27,447 nt of DNA, from positions 1 to 27,447 of IMG/VR virus record IMGVR_UViG_3300034066_001836; one strand, written 5' to 3'. This document shows, one piece after another, positions 4,425 through 23,949 of this stretch. Each line of letters opens with the position of its first letter. The first letter of the stretch is position 1. The translations under genes were made by a program, and so were the position numbers. The notes below the pieces were generated by a model that searched no databases, had not been told where the DNA came from, and saw only the letters and a list, made by a program, of their open reading frames with translations. Source of the DNA: a virus.

Positions 4425-4432
4425 TATTTAGA
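4425..4432 (-). promoter_or_regulatory. T4-type late promoter core (TCTAAATA) for gp4
   Basis: The minus strand reads TCTAAATA, 37 nt upstream of the GTG start of gp4. Confidence 0.6.
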
Positions 4433-4443
4433 GGCCCCTATCA

Positions 4444-5343
4444 ATGTCCGGTTACCTTGAATACATACGCAAGCTCTATGGAGATCGAGCACTTGAGCTT
4501 ATAGGAAAAGCAGGACAGGGCTTCCTGCCGCCCGATGGAAACTATGAGGTCGATCAGATGGTATATCCTCAAGACCTTTTCTCACCAGACTCCTCCCCAT
4601 TTATCCTGTTCTTTGCGGTACATCCAACCAACACAAACGTAATCTTGGATAAGATTGCCCTCTATATGCCAAGGGAGGTCTCCGTCAACTACGGCATAAA
4701 CTTCAGCGAGGCTACCAACATATTTGAATATGCCAACATGATGTCAGATCCATCCGTTGCTGATTATTTTGGTAGCGGTGCCAGCTTAGCCTCAGTTGCG
4801 TACGGAGTAGCTCGCGGTGCAGCGGGAGGAAACGGACTTGCCGGTAAGGTACTAGGTGGGATATCGGGCGCAGGTACGTCTCTCGGAAATGCTGCAAGTC
4901 GATCAAACTCGATTGGACAGACAATTTCAATCCAGAAGAAAAAGACTCTGAATCCCCACTTAGCAGCTTCTTTTGAGGGTGTTAATTTTCGAAGACACCC
5001 GTTCACTTTTGACTTGGTTGCTCGTAACCAGGCAGAAACCGACACAATTAACGACATAATTTACAAATTCAAATACCACGCTCATCCCGAAGCCGGAGAA
5101 CCAGACTCCTCGGCTACCTTCTGGGAGTGGCCGTCCGCGTGGCAAATCGGCCTGTTTTCTCCAGCAAGAAAGTACCTTCACAGCATTTCCACGTGCCACA
5201 TTACAAACATGAACGTTAGCTATTCGACTGGGGGAACTAGAGCGTTCTTCTCGGATACGGGCGCTCCGGTTTCAGTCCGACTTTCGCTTGAGTTTATGGA
5301 AACAGAGCTTATTACGCGAGGGCGTATCCGCCAAGGATTCTAG
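4444..5343 (+). CDS. Baseplate tail-tube initiator/cap protein (gp48/gp54 family)
   Basis: 299 residues. The N-terminal half holds the motif IALYMPREVSVNYGINFSEA, which is typical of T4-like gp48/gp54 proteins. A Gly/Ala/Ser-rich central stretch follows (about residues 120-160). The C-terminal half (FEGVNFRRHPFTFDLV, then IIYKFKYHAHPE, and SISTCHITNMNVSYSTGG, with a final LSLEFMETELITRGRI) resembles the tube-like beta domain that these proteins share with the tail tube. In T4 such proteins sit on top of the central hub and start tube polymerisation. Whether this is gp48 or gp54 cannot be decided by eye, and only one copy is obvious here. The next gene starts 2 nt after its stop. Confidence 0.75.
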   Translation: MSGYLEYIRKLYGDRALELIGKAGQGFLPPDGNYEVDQMVYPQDLFSPDSSPFILFFAVHPTNTNVILDKIALYMPREVSVNYGINFSEATNIFEYANMMSDPSVADYFGSGASLASVAYGVARGAAGGNGLAGKVLGGISGAGTSLGNAASRSNSIGQTISIQKKKTLNPHLAASFEGVNFRRHPFTFDLVARNQAETDTINDIIYKFKYHAHPEAGEPDSSATFWEWPSAWQIGLFSPARKYLHSISTCHITNMNVSYSTGGTRAFFSDTGAPVSVRLSLEFMETELITRGRIRQGF

Positions 5344-5345
5344 TA

Positions 5346-5852
5346 ATGAAGTATTTTCAGTACCTACCATCCTTAGATTATGCAGATCTTTCAGCGACAA
5401 ACATACTCGCTAGGGCAAAGGTTCGCGAGCACGTTCTTAATAATGCTGTAGTGTACTACACGCATCGAATCCAGGATGGGGAGCGCCCGGATACCCTGGC
5501 CACCAAATACTACGGTAACTCTAACTACACCTGGCTTATCTTCTATGCCAACGACATATTCGATCCCGTCTTTGATTGGCCCCTCTCAAGCGAAGCTTTA
5601 ATCGCTCACATGGTCAATAAGATTGGCTCTCTTGAAGTAGCCCAACAAACCCCACACCACTACCTTCTGGATGGGCAATACATAATAGACAGGCAGTCTT
5701 TCCTGGATCCAAATGTACCAGCAAACAGGAAGCGAATGGTTTCGGTGTACGAACATGAGGTCAACAAGAACGAGAAAAGCAGAGAAATCAAGCTGATAGA
5801 TAAAGCCTACGTTCGGCAAATCGTAAACGAGATGCAGCGACTATTCATTTAG
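5346..5852 (+). CDS. 53: Baseplate wedge protein gp53
   Basis: 168 residues against about 196 in T4. It carries the conserved gp53 core: YYTHRIQDGERPDTLATKYY, then NYTWLIFYANDIFDP and DWPLSSEAL, a LysM-like segment (about residues 35-85). In T4, gp53 clamps the wedges around the hub during baseplate assembly. It starts 2 nt after the upstream tube cap/initiator gene and is followed 6 nt later by the hub gene, so these are one transcription unit. Confidence 0.85.
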   Translation: MKYFQYLPSLDYADLSATNILARAKVREHVLNNAVVYYTHRIQDGERPDTLATKYYGNSNYTWLIFYANDIFDPVFDWPLSSEALIAHMVNKIGSLEVAQQTPHHYLLDGQYIIDRQSFLDPNVPANRKRMVSVYEHEVNKNEKSREIKLIDKAYVRQIVNEMQRLFI

Positions 5853-7923: not shown

Positions 7924-8583
7924 ATGTCCATATCCATTACAAACCTCAAGGCCGCAATAGACCTCGGTAACGGCCCAACCATGGCCTCCCAATTTCAAGT
8001 CGTTTTTCGGCTACCGGTGGCCCTTAAAACAGGCAACGAAGCGTTTACCTCGTCTACCCTTTCAATCCTCTGTCAAAGTGCGACTTTGGCCGGAACGCAA
8101 GTCGCAACAACCGAGCTTCCAATTTACGGACCCGGAGTAAAGATGCCCTATGGGCTCATTTATCAAGACTTGAACATTTCATTTCTTTGCACCAATACCA
8201 TGGCTCAACGCAAAGTGTTTGAAGAATGGCGCCGAATCATCATCGACCCGACCACCAACTACGTAAATTACTACGATACATACGTGGGAGAGATAATCGT
8301 ACAGAAGCTTAATCAATCCGGTGAGGCGGTACATAGCGTTTTATACGAAGAGGCGTTCCCCGTTGCCATCTTTGAACAAGAGCTTTCTTCCACTAACAAC
8401 GATTGGCTGCGGCTCTCGGTACAATTCTCCTATCGGAGATGGAGAACTCGGCTTGACCTTAATGCGGCCTCTTCGGCTGGCTTTGGGTCTATCGACATTC
8501 CACAAGCTCCAGGGGAAGAAGAAAATCCGAGCGATTTGTTCAAGAACACTCCAGCTCCAAGGGTTCCAGAGTTTAAGCCATAA
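7924..8583 (+). CDS. Tail tube-like protein (gp19-fold paralogue)
   Basis: 219 residues. The middle region CQSATLAGTQVATTELPIYG, then GVKMPYGLIYQDLNISFLC and QRKVFEEWRRIIID, followed by NYYDTYVGEIIVQKL, is a good match in pattern to T4-like tail tube proteins. The end (LRLSVQFSYRRWRT) fits the last tube strand. A second, different tube gene lies next to the sheath gene at 17052, so this copy, embedded among baseplate genes, may form a specialised ring, for example at the baseplate-tube junction, rather than the bulk tube. A Pro-rich tail follows residue 190. A late promoter core lies 9 nt upstream. Confidence 0.7.
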   Translation: MSISITNLKAAIDLGNGPTMASQFQVVFRLPVALKTGNEAFTSSTLSILCQSATLAGTQVATTELPIYGPGVKMPYGLIYQDLNISFLCTNTMAQRKVFEEWRRIIIDPTTNYVNYYDTYVGEIIVQKLNQSGEAVHSVLYEEAFPVAIFEQELSSTNNDWLRLSVQFSYRRWRTRLDLNAASSAGFGSIDIPQAPGEEENPSDLFKNTPAPRVPEFKP

Positions 8584-14204: not shown

Positions 14205-14447
14205 CTAATCGTCAAATTTAACTTTCTGGGAATTGGAGCGGAACATATTCATGTCCGACGCCTCCTTATGCAAGAGAGCTTTGAACTCATTTGTGAGGAG
14301 AGACGATACGTCTTCTGTTTCAATCCCCTTAGACCGACAGTAGTCGGTCAGGCCATCAAGAATAGAGAGGTCATTTGCCCTGGCAAAGTTGAGAATCTTC
14401 TCGGAAAATGAAGCCTTAGTCTCTAGCATTTCTTGTACCCCAATCAT
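14205..14447 (-). CDS. 33: Late transcription coactivator gp33
   Basis: 80 residues, shorter than T4 gp33 (about 112) but similar to the short forms in marine T4-like phages. The core ASFSEKILNFARANDLSILD, then GLTDYCRSKGIETEDVSSLL and EFKALLHKEASDMNMF, is the helical flap-binding region. The end is KVKFDD, a hydrophobic/acidic tail where T4 gp33 carries its sliding-clamp-binding sequence. gp33 links RNA polymerase carrying gp55 to the clamp at late promoters, which fits the many xxTAAATA elements in the window. Its ATG overlaps the PhoH stop (ATGA). Position near 59 and 32 matches T4. Confidence 0.75.
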   Translation of the reverse strand: MIGVQEMLETKASFSEKILNFARANDLSILDGLTDYCRSKGIETEDVSSLLTNEFKALLHKEASDMNMFRSNSQKVKFDD

Positions 14448-15211
14448 AACCCCAGAAGCTTTTTGGTAGTTAAAAACTCTCTCACTAAGTGACTTCGGAG
14501 AACGTCCTGCACTCCAAATTCAACAACATCAAAACTGCTCATATTATGGCAAACTCGGATCATGCTCTCCAATCCACTTTGCTCTGTTTTTCTGTGCTGG
14601 CTTAAATCATTCTGCTCGCGGTCTCCAAGAAGTATCAATCTTGAGCCTTCGCCCATGCGGGTAACAAGACTTGTTAGTTCATGCCACGTACAGTTTTGAA
14701 TTTCGTCAGCTACCACTAATGCGCTATTCCAAGAGACTCCTCGAAGGAATGATGTACATTTAAATTGTAACACCTCATCTCTTTTCAGCTCTTCATACGC
14801 CCCCTTCCTACCAAGTATGTCGTCCACTATCTCGGCGTATGGCTCTTCATACATAGCGATCTTCTCTTGCAGCGTTCCGGGTAGAAATCCAACATCCCGA
14901 GTTGGGACAATCGAGCGAACTATGATGATTTTTTCAAACTTCCCCTCGAAAAGCTCTTTTAGTGCTAGAAATAGAGCACAATAGCTTTTGCCCGTCCCAG
15001 CGCACCCATGCAACAGTACGTTCCTCTCATTGAAAAACGAGTGAAATAGCTGCTCTTGATTCTCAGTCTTGGGCTGTATGTCTTTCAGCTTAACGAGATA
15101 GTTCTCAAATCTTTTTTGCCTACGGCGACGGGCGCGGTCTTCTTTTCGTACTTTCTCGTATGCAGCTTGAAGCTGCTGGATCTCCAATTCGGGGTCTTTC
15201 ACATCACTCAT
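14444..15211 (-). CDS. phoH: PhoH-like P-loop ATPase
   Basis: 255 residues. A basic coiled N-terminus precedes the motor domain. Walker A is GCAGTGKS (residues 69-76). IIIVRSIVPTRDVGFLPGTL (about 95-114) is the typical PhoH stretch, followed by ALVVADEIQNCT with the Walker B pair Asp169-Glu170, and LILLGDREQNDL (sensor/arginine region). PhoH proteins are common in marine T4-like phages; their role is unsettled, with RNA or nucleotide metabolism proposed. The gene overlaps both neighbours by a few bases (TAATG with the zinc ribbon, ATGA with gp33), indicating translational coupling. Confidence 0.85.
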   Translation of the reverse strand: MSDVKDPELEIQQLQAAYEKVRKEDRARRRRQKRFENYLVKLKDIQPKTENQEQLFHSFFNERNVLLHGCAGTGKSYCALFLALKELFEGKFEKIIIVRSIVPTRDVGFLPGTLQEKIAMYEEPYAEIVDDILGRKGAYEELKRDEVLQFKCTSFLRGVSWNSALVVADEIQNCTWHELTSLVTRMGEGSRLILLGDREQNDLSQHRKTEQSGLESMIRVCHNMSSFDVVEFGVQDVLRSHLVREFLTTKKLLGL

Positions 15212-15612: not shown

Positions 15613-15620
15613 GATAAATA
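15613..15620 (+). promoter_or_regulatory. T4-type late promoter core (GATAAATA)
   Basis: GATAAATAGA lies 16 nt upstream of the ATG at 15637, with GGAG between them. It is divergent from the late promoter at 15510-15517. Confidence 0.6.
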
Positions 15621-15636
15621 GACTCTGGAGATATAC

Positions 15637-15981
15637 ATGATGGCAGCCCCCGAAGATTCGACATTTTCATCCCCCTCGCTGGTTGAGCTGGCCGGTACTG
15701 TTCGTTCGGAGTTCAATAAGAGCTACAAATTAGGGATGTCCAACCATCGCGTCATATTAAAGGCTGAGGAAGTAGCCAGGATTTACTATTCCAATAATGA
15801 AAAAGTGTCCGCTAATGAGCTAGACGTACTGTATGAGGTACTGCGTGAGTTTGGAATTATCCCAGCGCACGTCCCGCAGGACTTCCACGTCCATGTGGCA
15901 AACGTCATGAAATTTCTTGAGGTTGGAGATAAGACAGTAACGAAGAGTCACGTAGCCGGTCTGATTTTTTCAAGGATGTAG
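15637..15981 (+). CDS. Unknown protein, first gene of HslV-like operon
   Basis: 114 residues, not recognised. It has a short Ser/Pro-rich start, then mostly helical-looking sequence: LVELAGTVRSEFNKSYKLGM, then VILKAEEVARIYYSNNEKVS and LDVLYEVLREFGIIPAHVPQ. No membrane segment or signal peptide. GGAG is placed 6 nt before the ATG, and a late promoter core lies just upstream. One base separates its stop from the proteasome-like gene, so the two products are probably made together; a partner or adaptor role is possible but unproven. Confidence 0.7.
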   Translation: MMAAPEDSTFSSPSLVELAGTVRSEFNKSYKLGMSNHRVILKAEEVARIYYSNNEKVSANELDVLYEVLREFGIIPAHVPQDFHVHVANVMKFLEVGDKTVTKSHVAGLIFSRM

Positions 15982-15982
15982 T

Positions 15983-16558
15983 ATGACTTGCGTGGTTGGG
16001 CTTATTACCGATTCTGGCTTGATGTTTGGGGCCGACTCTTTAGTAACAACCGAATCGGGCTCGAAGCTTACACTTCTGGATAAGAAGGTCTTCATAAAGA
16101 ACAACATCATCTTTGGCTTTTGCGGGGACCTCCGATTTGGTCAGCTCATTAAACACCGCTTCAATCCGCCTTCGCCCGGAAGAAACAAGGACGTTGAGCT
16201 ATTTGTTCACACAAAGCTCGTCCCAGACCTTCAGAAGTTCTTTCATGACCTTGGGTACTTAAAATTGGACCAAGGCTCTTTTGAACTTATGATTGGGGTA
16301 AATCGCAGCATATTCACACTTTCAGAAGACCTAGCAGTTGTCGAAACCCCAACGAGGTACCAGGCTATCGGCAGCGGAGCCGATTATGCCCTTGGCGTCA
16401 TGTACGCTACCAAGTCAATTTCTAGTCCTACCCAGCGCATTACCCTGGCACTAGAGGCATCCAGTCAATTTTGCCAAACCGTAGCTAAGCCCTTTAACTT
16501 TGAGTTCCTCCCCTCGGCTACGAAGCGTCAGACAACCCAAGCAAGAAAGAAGAAGTAG
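15983..16558 (+). CDS. Proteasome beta/HslV-like Ntn hydrolase (T1 peptidase family)
   Basis: 191 residues. The protein begins Met-Thr, so removal of Met would expose Thr as nucleophile. Counting that Thr as 1, Asp17 (FGADS) and Lys33 (LLDKKVF) fall exactly where proteasome beta subunits and HslV keep their catalytic residues. The glycine-rich IIFGFCGDLRFGQLI strand and AIGSGADYALGVMYA near residue 130, followed by a helix, are also typical of the fold. The last 15 residues are basic and probably disordered. No ATPase partner such as HslU is in the window. It may form a self-compartmentalised protease acting on phage or host proteins; substrate unknown. It is preceded by an unknown gene one base away. 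Confidence 0.75.
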   Translation: MTCVVGLITDSGLMFGADSLVTTESGSKLTLLDKKVFIKNNIIFGFCGDLRFGQLIKHRFNPPSPGRNKDVELFVHTKLVPDLQKFFHDLGYLKLDQGSFELMIGVNRSIFTLSEDLAVVETPTRYQAIGSGADYALGVMYATKSISSPTQRITLALEASSQFCQTVAKPFNFEFLPSATKRQTTQARKKK

Positions 16559-16567
16559 GAGGTTTTC

Positions 16568-16876
16568 GTGGCATCGACCCGGAAACACTTTACTTTACAG
16601 GCCGAAAAATTGGGATTTAAGCGATACAGGCCCAAAGGAGACATCCATCGCTACAGTGCTCGGGAGTACATAAGGCGCCCACCACTTGCAGTTGGTATGT
16701 CCCCCAAGGGAAGCTCTGTTGATGTGTCGGTCTATCAGCTAGAGGATAAGCTCTGTCGTCACTTTGATACCTATAGCGAGGCTTGGAGCTTCCTTGTGAA
16801 GCTTATTACGCAGCTTGAAAATCCGGCAGCCTCCTCTCCACATGAGCCCTTAAAGTCAAAGAGACGAAAGGGGTAA
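16568..16876 (+). CDS. Small basic unknown protein
   Basis: 102 residues with a GTG start; AGGAGG lies 5 nt upstream, a strong ribosome-binding site. The sequence is basic and aromatic (RKHFTLQAEKLGFKRYRPKG; YSAREYIRRPPLAVG), ending in a Lys/Arg run. Not recognised. It follows the HslV-like gene by 9 nt and closes this plus-strand group. The -1 frame stays open across its stop (see findings). Confidence 0.65.
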   Translation: MASTRKHFTLQAEKLGFKRYRPKGDIHRYSAREYIRRPPLAVGMSPKGSSVDVSVYQLEDKLCRHFDTYSEAWSFLVKLITQLENPAASSPHEPLKSKRRKG

Positions 16877-17051: not shown

Positions 17052-17609
17052 TTAGGTACGTACGGTACCCTCTGGAACCACCGAATCAACAGCAAACGTA
17101 ACCTGGAATCGCTCGATCTGATTCGAAGCTTCCCACCCAAGAGTAATCTCGGAAACGTTCGTTGGGAAAATTCCTACACACTTCCAAGACTTAATCAAAG
17201 CCTCATCCTGCCCATACTGGTGAATCAGAGCCTGAGACTTGTACTGTGATGGTCGGCTTGTAAACCCGCTATTTCGTACGTTATCGGTCGGCTCATTCAA
17301 TGCGGAGAGCCAGGCGATAAATGCGTCGTAAACCGCAAAGTCTTCATCGTTAATAATCTCAATGGACCATGGCGCATACGTTCTGCTTCCCGAGAAGTTT
17401 ACAGCACGCCCCTGGAAGAAGACTGGAATAGCGTCGACAGTCGAAGCTGGGATTTGAGTAGCGGTCGCCTTAACTGGTACGTCCCGCGAGAACGTAGAAC
17501 CATTGGCGTTGATCATGGAGATTGGAAGAGACATCTCTACTTGAAAGAGATGAGGCCGCGCTCCGCCGTAGCGCATAGTCTCTGTAAATTCGTCGATTTT
17601 AAATGTCAT
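17052..17609 (-). CDS. 19: Major tail tube protein gp19
   Basis: 185 residues (T4 gp19 about 163). The start MTFKIDEFTETMRYGGARPH, then LFQVEMSLPIS, and VKATATQIPASTVDAIPVFF with GRAVNFSGSRTYAPWSIEII are typical of gp19, as are the NDEDFAVYDAFIAWLSALNE helix and GIFPTNVSEITLGWEASNQI near the end. It polymerises into the inner tube of the contractile tail. It directly follows the sheath gene, as 18-19 do in T4, and has its own late promoter core 36 nt upstream, after the sheath gene's hairpin. Confidence 0.9.
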   Translation of the reverse strand: MTFKIDEFTETMRYGGARPHLFQVEMSLPISMINANGSTFSRDVPVKATATQIPASTVDAIPVFFQGRAVNFSGSRTYAPWSIEIINDEDFAVYDAFIAWLSALNEPTDNVRNSGFTSRPSQYKSQALIHQYGQDEALIKSWKCVGIFPTNVSEITLGWEASNQIERFQVTFAVDSVVPEGTVRT

Positions 17610-17688: not shown

Positions 17689-19596
17689 CTAAAACTTCCC
17701 TACGACCTCGTTAAATGCCACACCCGAGCGTGTTGCTACGAAATTGAGGGTAATGAAGCTGATGGACTTTGCCGGTTTCACATAGATGTCACCAACAAAC
17801 TCGTTACGGTCAACAACCTCAGCTGTGTTGTTTGTCCCATCGCACACGACCTTCGAATCGTAAATACCGCGTCGAGCCTGAACCGTCTTAAGGAACGGCT
17901 CAACTTGGTTTTTGAAGTTGTTACGAGTAACATCATCGTTGATTTCGTGAATCAGGCTCTTAGCGACAATCGATATCGATTTGCGAAGCACGATGAAGAG
18001 TCGGCGTACGTTAATTCGGTCAAATGCCGATGGGCGAGCAAGGAGTGTCTTATCTCCAATCCAAACTGGACCACTTCCAGCCTGCGAGACGACAAAGTTG
18101 ACTCCAGACAGGTAAAGGTCGTCACGGGCGGCTTTGCGTGGGTTCCAGGCAAGCTTTACAACTTCCTTGAGCGTTCCTCGATTGTAGCCAGCAGGCGATA
18201 CCCATGGGTGACTCTGAGTGTCCGCACGAGCGGTAATACCTGCAAGATCACCGTTGTCCGGGATCCAAACAAAAGTGTCACGGTACTTGTCGTAAATGTT
18301 CAACCAGTTAGAGGACATTACGCCGTACGATGTCGAGGTCAGAGTGTTTCTAAACTCAATTACGTTAGCAGCCTCTCGACCGACCGCAGCTACCACGTCA
18401 TCCTTCTCAGGCGAAACGATAGCGATGCAATCCTGTCTGGTTTCTGCGATACCAAGAACATGAAGAGCTACAGCAGAAGATGCCTCTCCGCAAAGAAGAA
18501 GAGCAATATCGATAGACTCGGTATCAGAAAAGAGGTCATACCCGAGGTTCCTAGCAGCATCAATCGAGGAGCCAGAGTTGACATCTCGCCCACCGGTCAA
18601 TCTCATAGTGGTTGGCTTGTTTACCTGAGTAAAGGATGTTCCCGAAGACTTAGATCCCCAGTTTAATCCAGCTGGGAGATGGTCGGTCCAGTAAACGTAG
18701 GCGCTATTACGGTTAATACGATTAACGTAGTAGCTCGAAGTACCATCCTCATCCATGGCATCAGAAGCCTTAGACATGAACGAGTAACGCTCAAGTACTG
18801 TACCTGGGATATTCGTAAACTCTCCACCTCGGTCTATGACGACGACGTGGATTTGGTCATTGGAACCACCCTTGTTCAAAACGAACTCAGAAGTTCCAGG
18901 AGCAACGCCGATAGCATCGGCAAACTCCCATTTTGCAACAAGGGTCGCCCCAGAGAGAGCCGGGGAGAAGGCTCGGTCTACGACAAGGGTAGCGTCATCA
19001 ACGACATCAACTACCTTTCGCTCTTGGCCGCTAACTGTATCTTTTACAATAGAACCAACTGCTACTCGGGAAATGAACTCAGAATCTTCGTCGCCGCTTA
19101 CTTCTGTACCAACAGATGTAACAGTTCCAGCCAAAGTCTGATTGAACGCAGCCGAAGACGGACATACAGAGATTTCAATCGAGTTTCCGAGGGCGCCGGG
19201 GCATCGAGCAGCAAAGGGGCCTACGTTTGGTAATCCGCCTGAGAAATTAGACTCATAGTGAGAGCCGTTTTTAATGAGAACACCAACTCCGGGCGCCCCG
19301 GTGCCAGTTCCATTCTCTGCCGTAGCATTTAAAGCTCCAACTCCAGCAGCGCGAACCACTCGAAGGGCATCTGCATACGACAGGAATCGGGCAGCGGTAA
19401 AGAAAGAAGTTGCAGTATCAAGATCAGGCTTACCGAATCTCTTTACAAGCTCTCCTTCGTTGGAGAGGGTTACGATTTCGTCTAATGGGCCCCATCGGAA
19501 TACGCCACAGAAAGCTCCAACAGTCGTGTTGACTCCTGGAACATAGCTTGAGAGGTCAACCTCTCGTGTTATAACGCCTGGTGAAATTTGAGTCAT
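17689..19596 (-). CDS. 18: Tail sheath protein gp18
   Basis: 635 residues from the ATG at 19596 (MTQISPGVITREVDLSSYVP), with AAGGGA upstream; the frame extends further 5' but without a suitable start. T4 gp18 is about 659. The N-terminus with PGVITREVDLS, then GAFCGVFRWGPLDEIVTLSN, is diagnostic, as is the C-terminal domain: ARPSAFDRINVRRLFIVLRK, then SIVAKSLIHEINDDVTR and the closing FITLNFVATRSGVAFNEVVG. Sheath subunits surround the tube and contract on infection. It lies between terminase and tube as in T4. Confidence 0.92.
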   Translation of the reverse strand: MTQISPGVITREVDLSSYVPGVNTTVGAFCGVFRWGPLDEIVTLSNEGELVKRFGKPDLDTATSFFTAARFLSYADALRVVRAAGVGALNATAENGTGTGAPGVGVLIKNGSHYESNFSGGLPNVGPFAARCPGALGNSIEISVCPSSAAFNQTLAGTVTSVGTEVSGDEDSEFISRVAVGSIVKDTVSGQERKVVDVVDDATLVVDRAFSPALSGATLVAKWEFADAIGVAPGTSEFVLNKGGSNDQIHVVVIDRGGEFTNIPGTVLERYSFMSKASDAMDEDGTSSYYVNRINRNSAYVYWTDHLPAGLNWGSKSSGTSFTQVNKPTTMRLTGGRDVNSGSSIDAARNLGYDLFSDTESIDIALLLCGEASSAVALHVLGIAETRQDCIAIVSPEKDDVVAAVGREAANVIEFRNTLTSTSYGVMSSNWLNIYDKYRDTFVWIPDNGDLAGITARADTQSHPWVSPAGYNRGTLKEVVKLAWNPRKAARDDLYLSGVNFVVSQAGSGPVWIGDKTLLARPSAFDRINVRRLFIVLRKSISIVAKSLIHEINDDVTRNNFKNQVEPFLKTVQARRGIYDSKVVCDGTNNTAEVVDRNEFVGDIYVKPAKSISFITLNFVATRSGVAFNEVVGKF

Positions 19597-19634
19597 TTTA
19601 CTAATCCCTTGTTTATCGGATTCGCTGATACGTC

Positions 19635-22351: not shown

Positions 22352-22371
22352 AAAAAAGTTCAATAAATTGT

Positions 22372-22401
22372 TTGAAGTCGGGCCGCCGCAAAAGGTACAA
22401 T
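22372..22401 (+). promoter_or_regulatory. Sigma70-like promoter of the recombinase
   Basis: TTGAAG (22372-22377), an 18-bp spacer and TACAAT (22396-22401), 29 nt before the ATG at 22431. Unlike its neighbours, this gene has no late core, so early host-type expression is likely. Confidence 0.55.
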
Positions 22402-22430
22402 TAGATCATTGGTTGTTAGAGAGAGGCAGT

Positions 22431-23003
22431 ATGAAGGGTTGCAGACCACTTTCCGAGAATGAGAAGACACAGGTTATCAATGCTATTACCGGTCGCCACC
22501 AGCTTCGCGATAAGCTCATTGTTATCTTCGGTATCTACGCGGGATTTCGAATCTCTGAAATCCTTTCCCTCAAGGTGCGAGATGTGTTCCAGAACGGCAT
22601 CGTCCCTAACCACGTAACCGTTCAGCGCAGAAATGTTAAAGGTAAGCGCGAGGGACGAACTGTAGTTCTTCACCAGTCTATTAAGGATGCGATTGTAGAG
22701 TACCTTCTCGCCAACCTTCACCTTTCCCCAGACTCAGAGCTTTTCATCAACCAAGCTGGCACAAAGGCTATTAGCCGCCAACAGGCTTGGAACATCGTGG
22801 AGGCTGCCTTTGCAGCGTGTGAACTCACTGGAACTCTTGGTACCCACTCTCTCCGTAAGACCTTTGCCCTTAACGCTTATCAGAAGTCTGGACACTGCCT
22901 TCTTAAGACAAAGAAGGCACTAGGACATACAGACATTCGAACCACAGAGAAGTACCTAAGCTTTGCCGAGAGCGAGGTTGACGAGCTGATCCTTAGCGCC
23001 TAG
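22431..23003 (+). CDS. Compact tyrosine recombinase/integrase
   Basis: 190 residues from ATG at 22431 (AGAGAGG upstream); the open frame begins at a TTG at 22368 overlapping the promoter. Catalytic residues of the tyrosine recombinase family are present: Arg40 (GFRISEIL), a Lys in NVKGKREGRTVVL, His139 and Arg142 (HSLRKT), His166 (LGHTDI) and Tyr175 (TTEKYLSF). Only the catalytic domain remains; the N-terminal core-binding and arm-binding domains of full integrases are missing. Possible roles are resolving genome multimers or inserting DNA elements; no att site could be identified. It sits between two late genes with leader peptides but has its own sigma70-like promoter. Confidence 0.85.
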   Translation: MKGCRPLSENEKTQVINAITGRHQLRDKLIVIFGIYAGFRISEILSLKVRDVFQNGIVPNHVTVQRRNVKGKREGRTVVLHQSIKDAIVEYLLANLHLSPDSELFINQAGTKAISRQQAWNIVEAAFAACELTGTLGTHSLRKTFALNAYQKSGHCLLKTKKALGHTDIRTTEKYLSFAESEVDELILSA

Positions 23004-23069: not shown

Positions 23070-23076
23070 GGTGGGT

Positions 23077-23949
23077 ATGAAGACCTTCATGGAGTACATA
23101 TCCGAGTCCATAATAGACCCACACCATGACAGGTTAGCCTCGGCGGTATTCGAATCGGAATCCCCCGCCCGCCTTAAATCCATGGTAAGAGCCCAAATCC
23201 AGAGAGGAATACACCACATCGAAACCCATGCCGGAGTGCAGGTAGTTGACTATCGGTTAATAGGGAGCATCCTCACCCATCGCTACTCGAACGAGTCGGA
23301 CCTGGACATCAACGTCCTGATCCGAGGAGAGCTTAAGCACGCGGTAAAAGTGGTGTCTCAACTTAGCGGGAAACCTGTACCCGGCTCCCCCTATGTCGTG
23401 AATTTCCACGTACTGAACCAAAAAGAAGTCTGGAACGCAGCAAACGACGATGCCGATGGTGTGTTCAACGTTGAGGAGAACAAGTTTGAGCGGGTACCGA
23501 AAGACCTCCCATTTGACTTGTCGATGTATTGGAAAGATTTTACTAGAATCGCTAGTTCAATCGAGACCTTATCGAATCGACTAAAAGAGCAGGTTCTCGA
23601 CTACGACTCTCTAAGAAAGGCTAACCGCGACGAGCTAAAGCACCTTCGCACCCTCACAGTTCAAAAGCTTCGGGCGCTCAAGAAGACTGCCGCTTCCCTT
23701 GTAGACATCTATAAAATCATAAAGATTTATCGTGACAAGATATTTGCACACGAACTAACTCAGAAAGACATCATTCGCTACGGCGAAAAGAACCGTATGC
23801 CTGCGAATGTAATTTACAAGCTTCTTGAAAAGTACCACTACATGAAGCTCCTAGATTCAATTTCAAACATCATCGGACACGACGGCTCTTTGAGCGCAAA
23901 CGAAATACGGGAATTGCAGCAGATCTTTAAGCCAACGCAGCCTAAATAG
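23077..23949 (+). CDS. Nucleotidyltransferase-like protein with capsid-targeting-type leader
   Basis: 290 residues from ATG 23077; an in-frame GTG at 23071 would lie in the promoter spacer. Residues 1-10, MKTFMEYISE, closely match the T4 IPIII capsid-targeting leader MKTYQEFIAE, with a gp21-type I-x-E cleavage site. Residues 61-80 (RLIGSILTHRYSNESDLDIN) carry the nucleotidyltransferase pattern G-S...D-x-D, with Gly63-Ser64 and Asp75/Asp77 as metal ligands. The following VNFHVL strand (near 120) lacks an obvious third Asp. The C-terminal 150 residues are helical and basic (LKHLRTLTVQKLRALKKTAA; SLVDIYKIIKIYRDKI). Substrate unknown: it could modify a nucleotide, RNA, DNA or protein. Inferred: a packaged, injected enzyme. 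Confidence 0.75.
   Translation: MKTFMEYISESIIDPHHDRLASAVFESESPARLKSMVRAQIQRGIHHIETHAGVQVVDYRLIGSILTHRYSNESDLDINVLIRGELKHAVKVVSQLSGKPVPGSPYVVNFHVLNQKEVWNAANDDADGVFNVEENKFERVPKDLPFDLSMYWKDFTRIASSIETLSNRLKEQVLDYDSLRKANRDELKHLRTLTVQKLRALKKTAASLVDIYKIIKIYRDKIFAHELTQKDIIRYGEKNRMPANVIYKLLEKYHYMKLLDSISNIIGHDGSLSANEIRELQQIFKPTQPK
23941..23948 (+). promoter_or_regulatory. Late-promoter-like core (CCTAAATA) abutting the second zinc ribbon
   Basis: CCTAAATA-GTGGT-ATG overlaps the stop of the preceding gene and repeats the layout at 22246 and 23077, with 5 nt between core and ATG. Confidence 0.45.

Follow-up and report, generated by a model that had tools for sequence, protein, structure and literature searches.

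A T4-like phage genome encodes what is, judged from sequence and predicted structure, a genuine proteasome-like (T1) Ntn hydrolase with a complete catalytic set. Its gene lies in the 27,447-nt stretch of DNA analysed here (IMG/VR record IMGVR_UViG_3300034066_001836, referred to as the window). We file the protein as a phage member of AAH. Its most likely role, to which we assign a probability of roughly 40%, would be that of a late peptidase for clean-up or trimming in virion assembly.

The kind of enzyme is already known. Among group I proteasome homologs, AAH and PPH have been known from phages and bacteria since the work of Fuchs, Alva and Lupas in 2021 (PMC8665760). The window thus adds a member, and the surprise with which an earlier reading of this DNA (the sequence-only reading) had presented it is not warranted. 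No paper assigning a role or function to phage AAH or phage proteasome homologs was found in our literature search. The new details are a conserved T4-type late promoter, a linked gene for a 114-aa protein, a basic tail seen only in phages, and adjacency to terminase and portal genes. Coordinates are collected in Table 1.

Table 1. Features of the window, numbered from its first nucleotide
Feature	Position	Strand	Remarks
Tail tube-type gene	7924..8583	+	
PhoH-type ATPase	14444..15211	-	ATPase nearest to hydrolase, opposite strand
T4-type late promoter motif GATAAATAG (predicted)	15613..15621	+	23 nt upstream of operon start; kept in relatives
114-aa protein	15637..15981	+	no family match; stop codon 1 nt before hydrolase start
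AAH-type proteasome-like hydrolase, 191 aa	15983..16558	+	predicted catalytic set Thr2, Asp18, Lys35; basic C-terminal tail, about residues 177-191
102-aa protein	16568..16876	+	begins 9 nt after hydrolase stop
T4 gp19-type tail tube protein	17052..17609	-	convergent neighbour; ATAAATA 43 nt before start
T4 gp18-type tail sheath protein	17689..19626	-	ATAAATA 15 nt before start
Protein with tyrosine recombinase domain	22368..23003	+	PF00589, 3e-21
Protein with weak matches to AbiU2-type HEPN and nucleotidyltransferase	23071..23949	+	TATAAATA motif 8 nt before start
Secreted-looking serine protease, 557 aa	24506..26179	-	phrog_3677 'protease', 1.3e-56

Fold and family of the hydrolase

The hydrolase gene is an intact ORF with an ATG start. 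Its product begins MTCVVGL, that is, with Met-Thr and without a pro-peptide. Residues 1-174 match PHROG 1040 (E 2.7e-18), labelled 'peptidase HslV family', a cluster name with no tested function behind it. Matches to the Pfam Proteasome model (0.0052) and to HslV models (0.04) were both under the model cut-offs. When a profile of 80 relatives was searched against the PDB, a comparison with T1 families that the sequence-only reading had suggested, it retrieved BPH (1.9e-9), HslV (3e-8) and proteasome beta (1e-6).

The AlphaFold single-chain model (mean pLDDT 93.3) displays a proteasome-like order of strands and helices and gives no sign of a fold differing from Ntn hydrolases. Helices H1 (50-58) and H2 (71-89) are both present, and so is the GSG-type helix (GSG..YALG) noticed earlier. 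Among solved structures, the best match of the model is BPH (Foldseek E 9.9e-11; Z 20.8, rmsd 2.4, 171 residues); comparison with HslV and proteasome beta gives Z about 20 each. The earlier assignment to proteasome/HslV-like T1 hydrolases is thereby upheld. In a quick tree with few well-supported forks, the window member groups with its relatives L001 and L023 (100) on a long branch.

Catalytic residues

Residues were scored in 178 phage and bacterial homologs with a readable N-terminus. Asp18 (mature Asp17) is kept in all of them and Thr2 (mature Thr1) in 176, so that the loss of Thr2 considered in the sequence-only reading is confined to one Ser and one Asn, the latter at a doubtful start. 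Since a pattern around residues 45-54 served to find the bacterial homologs, and tblastn the named-phage ones, Thr2, Asp18 and Lys35 were not selected for in these sets, unlike in the viral contigs, for which search patterns included Thr2 or Asp18.

An exact Thr1-Asp17-Lys33 spacing had been claimed before. Its threonine and aspartate stand, but its lysine has to be moved by one position. Lys34 (mature 33) is variable among homologs (T, R, P, E, S, K), whereas Lys35 (mature 34) is invariant (178/178); conservation thus rules out Lys34 as the catalytic lysine. Lys35 is aligned with Lys37 of Thiobacillus denitrificans BPH (HEK), named catalytic by Fuchs et al. 2017 (PMC5777263). Lysine falls at mature position 33 in 142 homologs and at position 34 in 28, the window clade among the latter. 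By this alignment, the spacing in the window hydrolase is 1-17-34 with Lys35 as the predicted catalytic lysine, because the window clade has one additional residue before it. The count of 33 met a lysine owing to an accidental KK pair. The corrected position matters for mutants built to test the hydrolase.

Relationship to known proteasome homologs

Bacterial relatives were found in Azospirillum, rhizobia, Streptomyces, Frankia, Actinoplanes, Paenibacillus and other Bacilli, and further relatives in viral contigs. This matches the range reported for AAH, namely phages, alphaproteobacteria, actinobacteria and Firmicutes (PMC8665760). On this ground, and because the anatomy of PPH is not found, the hydrolase is filed as AAH, by distribution and anatomy. 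Common features are group I membership, a compact fold, the Thr-Asp-Lys set and the missing pro-peptide. The window member differs in its additional residue before the catalytic lysine and in its basic tail.

Other known systems fit less well. PPH, a phage-borne group I member, has about 140 residues and misses helix H2 (PMC8665760); with 191 aa and H2 present in the model, the window protein is not a PPH. HslV (ClpQ) has the same fold and a similarly short pore loop, but identity is about 19%, phages provide no HslU partner, and scores of 13.5-13.7 bits on HslV equivalog models, against cut-offs of 137-157.75, rule out that the hydrolase is HslV. BPH of T. denitrificans (5ovs/5ovt) is the closest solved structure, with 23% identity over 171 residues. 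Its pore loop is long and acidic (PMC8665760), whereas that of the window hydrolase is short, helix 2 being separated from the following strand by about 10 residues. In BPH, removal of Met exposes Thr1, and the enzyme is inert in vitro on peptides and casein (PMC5777263). As this is the nearest characterised relative, peptidase activity of the window hydrolase cannot be assumed.

Operon organization and late promoter

The window belongs to the genome of a T4-like phage, with genes for gp32, gp59, PhoH, tail tube, tail sheath, large terminase and baseplate proteins. Since the closest tail sheaths (Stenotrophomonas phage DLP6 and Pelagibacter, Sinorhizobium and Ochrobactrum phages) are only about 42-44% identical, no host is named for it.

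The hydrolase gene is the middle one of a three-gene operon on the + strand, surrounded by genes on the - strand. The first gene is preceded by the T4-type late promoter motif GATAAATA, which all seven related loci have retained although the surrounding spacers have changed. The window contains eight copies of ATAAATA, against an expectation of 2.6 and with as many reached in 2 of 100 shuffles; seven of these copies lie 8-43 nt upstream of gene starts, including those of tail sheath, tail tube and the hydrolase operon. The motif thus supports a predicted late-type T4 promoter, of the same type as that of the tail sheath and tail tube genes, in agreement with the earlier claim of a late operon.

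The upstream gene, coding for the 114-aa protein, is linked to the hydrolase gene in all eight T4-like loci (the window included, as L006) and was seen beside none of the AAH genes found outside this clade. Searches of PHROGs, Pfam and named phages gave nothing significant for the protein, and at pLDDT 48 its structure model cannot be relied on. Downstream, the 102-aa gene varies between loci: it occurs in L004, L023 and L024 and is replaced in L001.

Strict linkage of the 114-aa gene would also suit a specific processing enzyme, or a ligase like connectase, that acts on one phage protein (the 114-aa product, for example) and is not a bulk protease. BPH is inert on generic substrates (PMC5777263), and connectase is a ligase built on a proteasome-like fold (PMC8665760). 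However, the model is devoid of the connectase-type two-helix insertion between early strands, and every other AAH gene found is without the 114-aa gene beside it. We consider such a specialised enzyme unlikely.

Genomic placement in other phages and bacteria

Placement was counted in 61 non-redundant viral loci, 48 on contigs below 80 kb and 13 on contigs of at least 80 kb. In 23 of the 48, a gene for terminase large subunit or portal lies on the same strand at a distance of no more than 3 kb from AAH; in none of the 13 is there one nearby. Against a generous null, where AAH is placed at random among the genes of a contig always carrying both terminase and portal and where loci count as independent although relatives are not, direct adjacency is in excess both below 80 kb (15/48 loci, 5.6-7.5 expected; P 1e-4 to 3e-3) and on contigs of at least 20 kb (10/30, 1.6-2.2 expected; P about 1e-6 to 2e-5). 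At least three PHROG types (phrog_9, phrog_2/5902, phrog_38) are represented among the terminases beside AAH.

Presence of AAH in head modules of many phages could mean that the hydrolase replaces the prohead protease, and in ct2KA10 AAH lies directly 3' of a large structural-looking gene. Yet several head modules with AAH also carry a head maturation protease. Moreover, L001, a close relative of the window, encodes a T4 gp21-type S77 prohead protease. We therefore do not regard the hydrolase as a stand-in for the latter, and such a replacement in the window clade seems extremely improbable.

In other large phages AAH occupies different positions, a point against an assembly role: its neighbour is thymidylate synthase in a T5-like Salmonella phage, Pseudoalteromonas phage J2-1 carries it after PhoH, and Ochrobactrum phage OC has it within a MazG/HNH region. 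Such an accessory gene, patchy in phages, placed variously in their genomes and spread over many viral contigs, might serve host takeover or counter-defence, its product being a late chambered peptidase directed at host regulators or at proteins of defence, with no part in virion assembly. Against this speak the promoter type, which is late and not early, and the frequent position of AAH beside terminase and portal in smaller phages. This function is conceivable but, in our opinion, rather doubtful. The sequence-only reading had named assembly or late takeover; both are possible, and the head-gene neighbourhood in other phages leans to assembly.

In Azospirillum, AAH resides on large chromosome-size contigs, flanked by conserved genes without phage-derived look. 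This context speaks against the assembly role, as it suggests that AAH activity is not tied to virions.

Two observations concern paralogs. A 369-kb viral contig (L027) contains two divergent AAH genes in tandem (4427-4993 and 5001-5555); both products have N-terminal Thr and might form a ring of two kinds of subunit. In Rhizobium loci L102 and L104-L106, AAH is accompanied by a relative of the first copy. In these loci (L102, L104, L105, L106), the best AAH frame is devoid of the first ~40 residues, the region of Thr1, Asp17 and Lys33, which points to a frameshift in the gene, or to a wrongly split frame, beside a second paralog.

Association with ATPases

The earlier remark that no HslU-like unfoldase is nearby holds: no HslU-like gene occurs near the hydrolase gene in the window, and AAA_2 (ClpX/HslU/ClpB-type) genes were found in none of four related contigs. 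ATPases of ClpX/HslU type are also missing from 11 of 12 named AAH-bearing phage records. The exception is jumbo Salicola phage SCTP-2 (W11:57471-57953 and 193085-193636), with AAA_2 proteins in frames of 748 and 406 aa. Among 20 AAH-bearing bacteria, ten have HslU above cut-off; the ten without it are all actinobacteria (Streptomyces, Frankia, Protofrankia, Pseudofrankia, Actinoplanes). From phages and bacteria together, it is reasonable to conclude that HslU is not a general partner of AAH. The proposed subunit working with a host ATPase is weakened accordingly, if HslU was meant. PhoH was rejected as partner ATPase, as it stands beside AAH only in the window clade (on the other strand) and in two further phages.

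These data also bear on possible mimicry of HslV, in which the phage subunit would dock on host HslU or mix with host HslV and so redirect ATP-dependent degradation. The common fold and an HslV-like short pore loop (PMC8665760) are consistent with it. Ten AAH-bearing actinobacterial genomes without HslU argue against it in general, and so does the distance from HslV equivalog models noted above. Mimicry is, in our view, very unlikely.

C-terminal tail and proposed role

A basic C-terminal tail (net +4 or more after residue 176) occurs in 14 of 98 phage homologs and in 0 of 84 bacterial ones, both sets including near-identical copies. It was seen only in phage homologs, its carriers being T4-like, jumbo and actinophage members. 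As C-termini point outwards in the proteasome-like fold (PMC8665760), the tail could dock the enzyme.

We propose the following course of events for the assembly-stage peptidase. Host methionine aminopeptidase would remove Met1 and expose Thr2 as nucleophile, which Lys35 and Asp18 would activate. Subunits would stack into a ring like that of HslV or BPH, with active sites inside. Late in infection, the hydrolase may then cut proteins that are small or unfolded, with no phage ATPase dedicated to it. Possible targets are fragments of scaffold or pro-peptides, or host factors met during assembly; the co-translated 114-aa protein might be a partner, an adaptor or a substrate. Assembly is favoured because of the late promoter type and the head-gene neighbourhood in smaller phages; in Vibrio phage phiTY18, AAH adjoins an S49-like head maturation protease. 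Together, late promoter, linked 114-aa gene and recurrent terminase or portal neighbours lead to a concrete proposal, assembly-stage proteolysis, for a family common to many phages and soil bacteria.

More speculatively, a proteasome-type chamber that works without an ATPase might have been recruited by several kinds of tailed phages as a dedicated enzyme of late assembly, alongside the prohead protease. In the T4-like clade it would have a 114-aa partner of its own and would dock on nucleic acid or head through its basic tail. In this full form, the scenario is improbable.

Other genes of the window

Several further genes deserve mention. Tail tube-type genes occur twice, on opposite strands. 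The tyrosine recombinase domain is unexpected for a T4-like phage. Close to it on the same strand lies the gene with weak matches to AbiU2-type HEPN and nucleotidyltransferase. The putative serine protease starts like a signal peptide, contains a subtilisin-type domain and has a long tail rich in TPTRTP, which gives it a secreted look within a T4-like phage.
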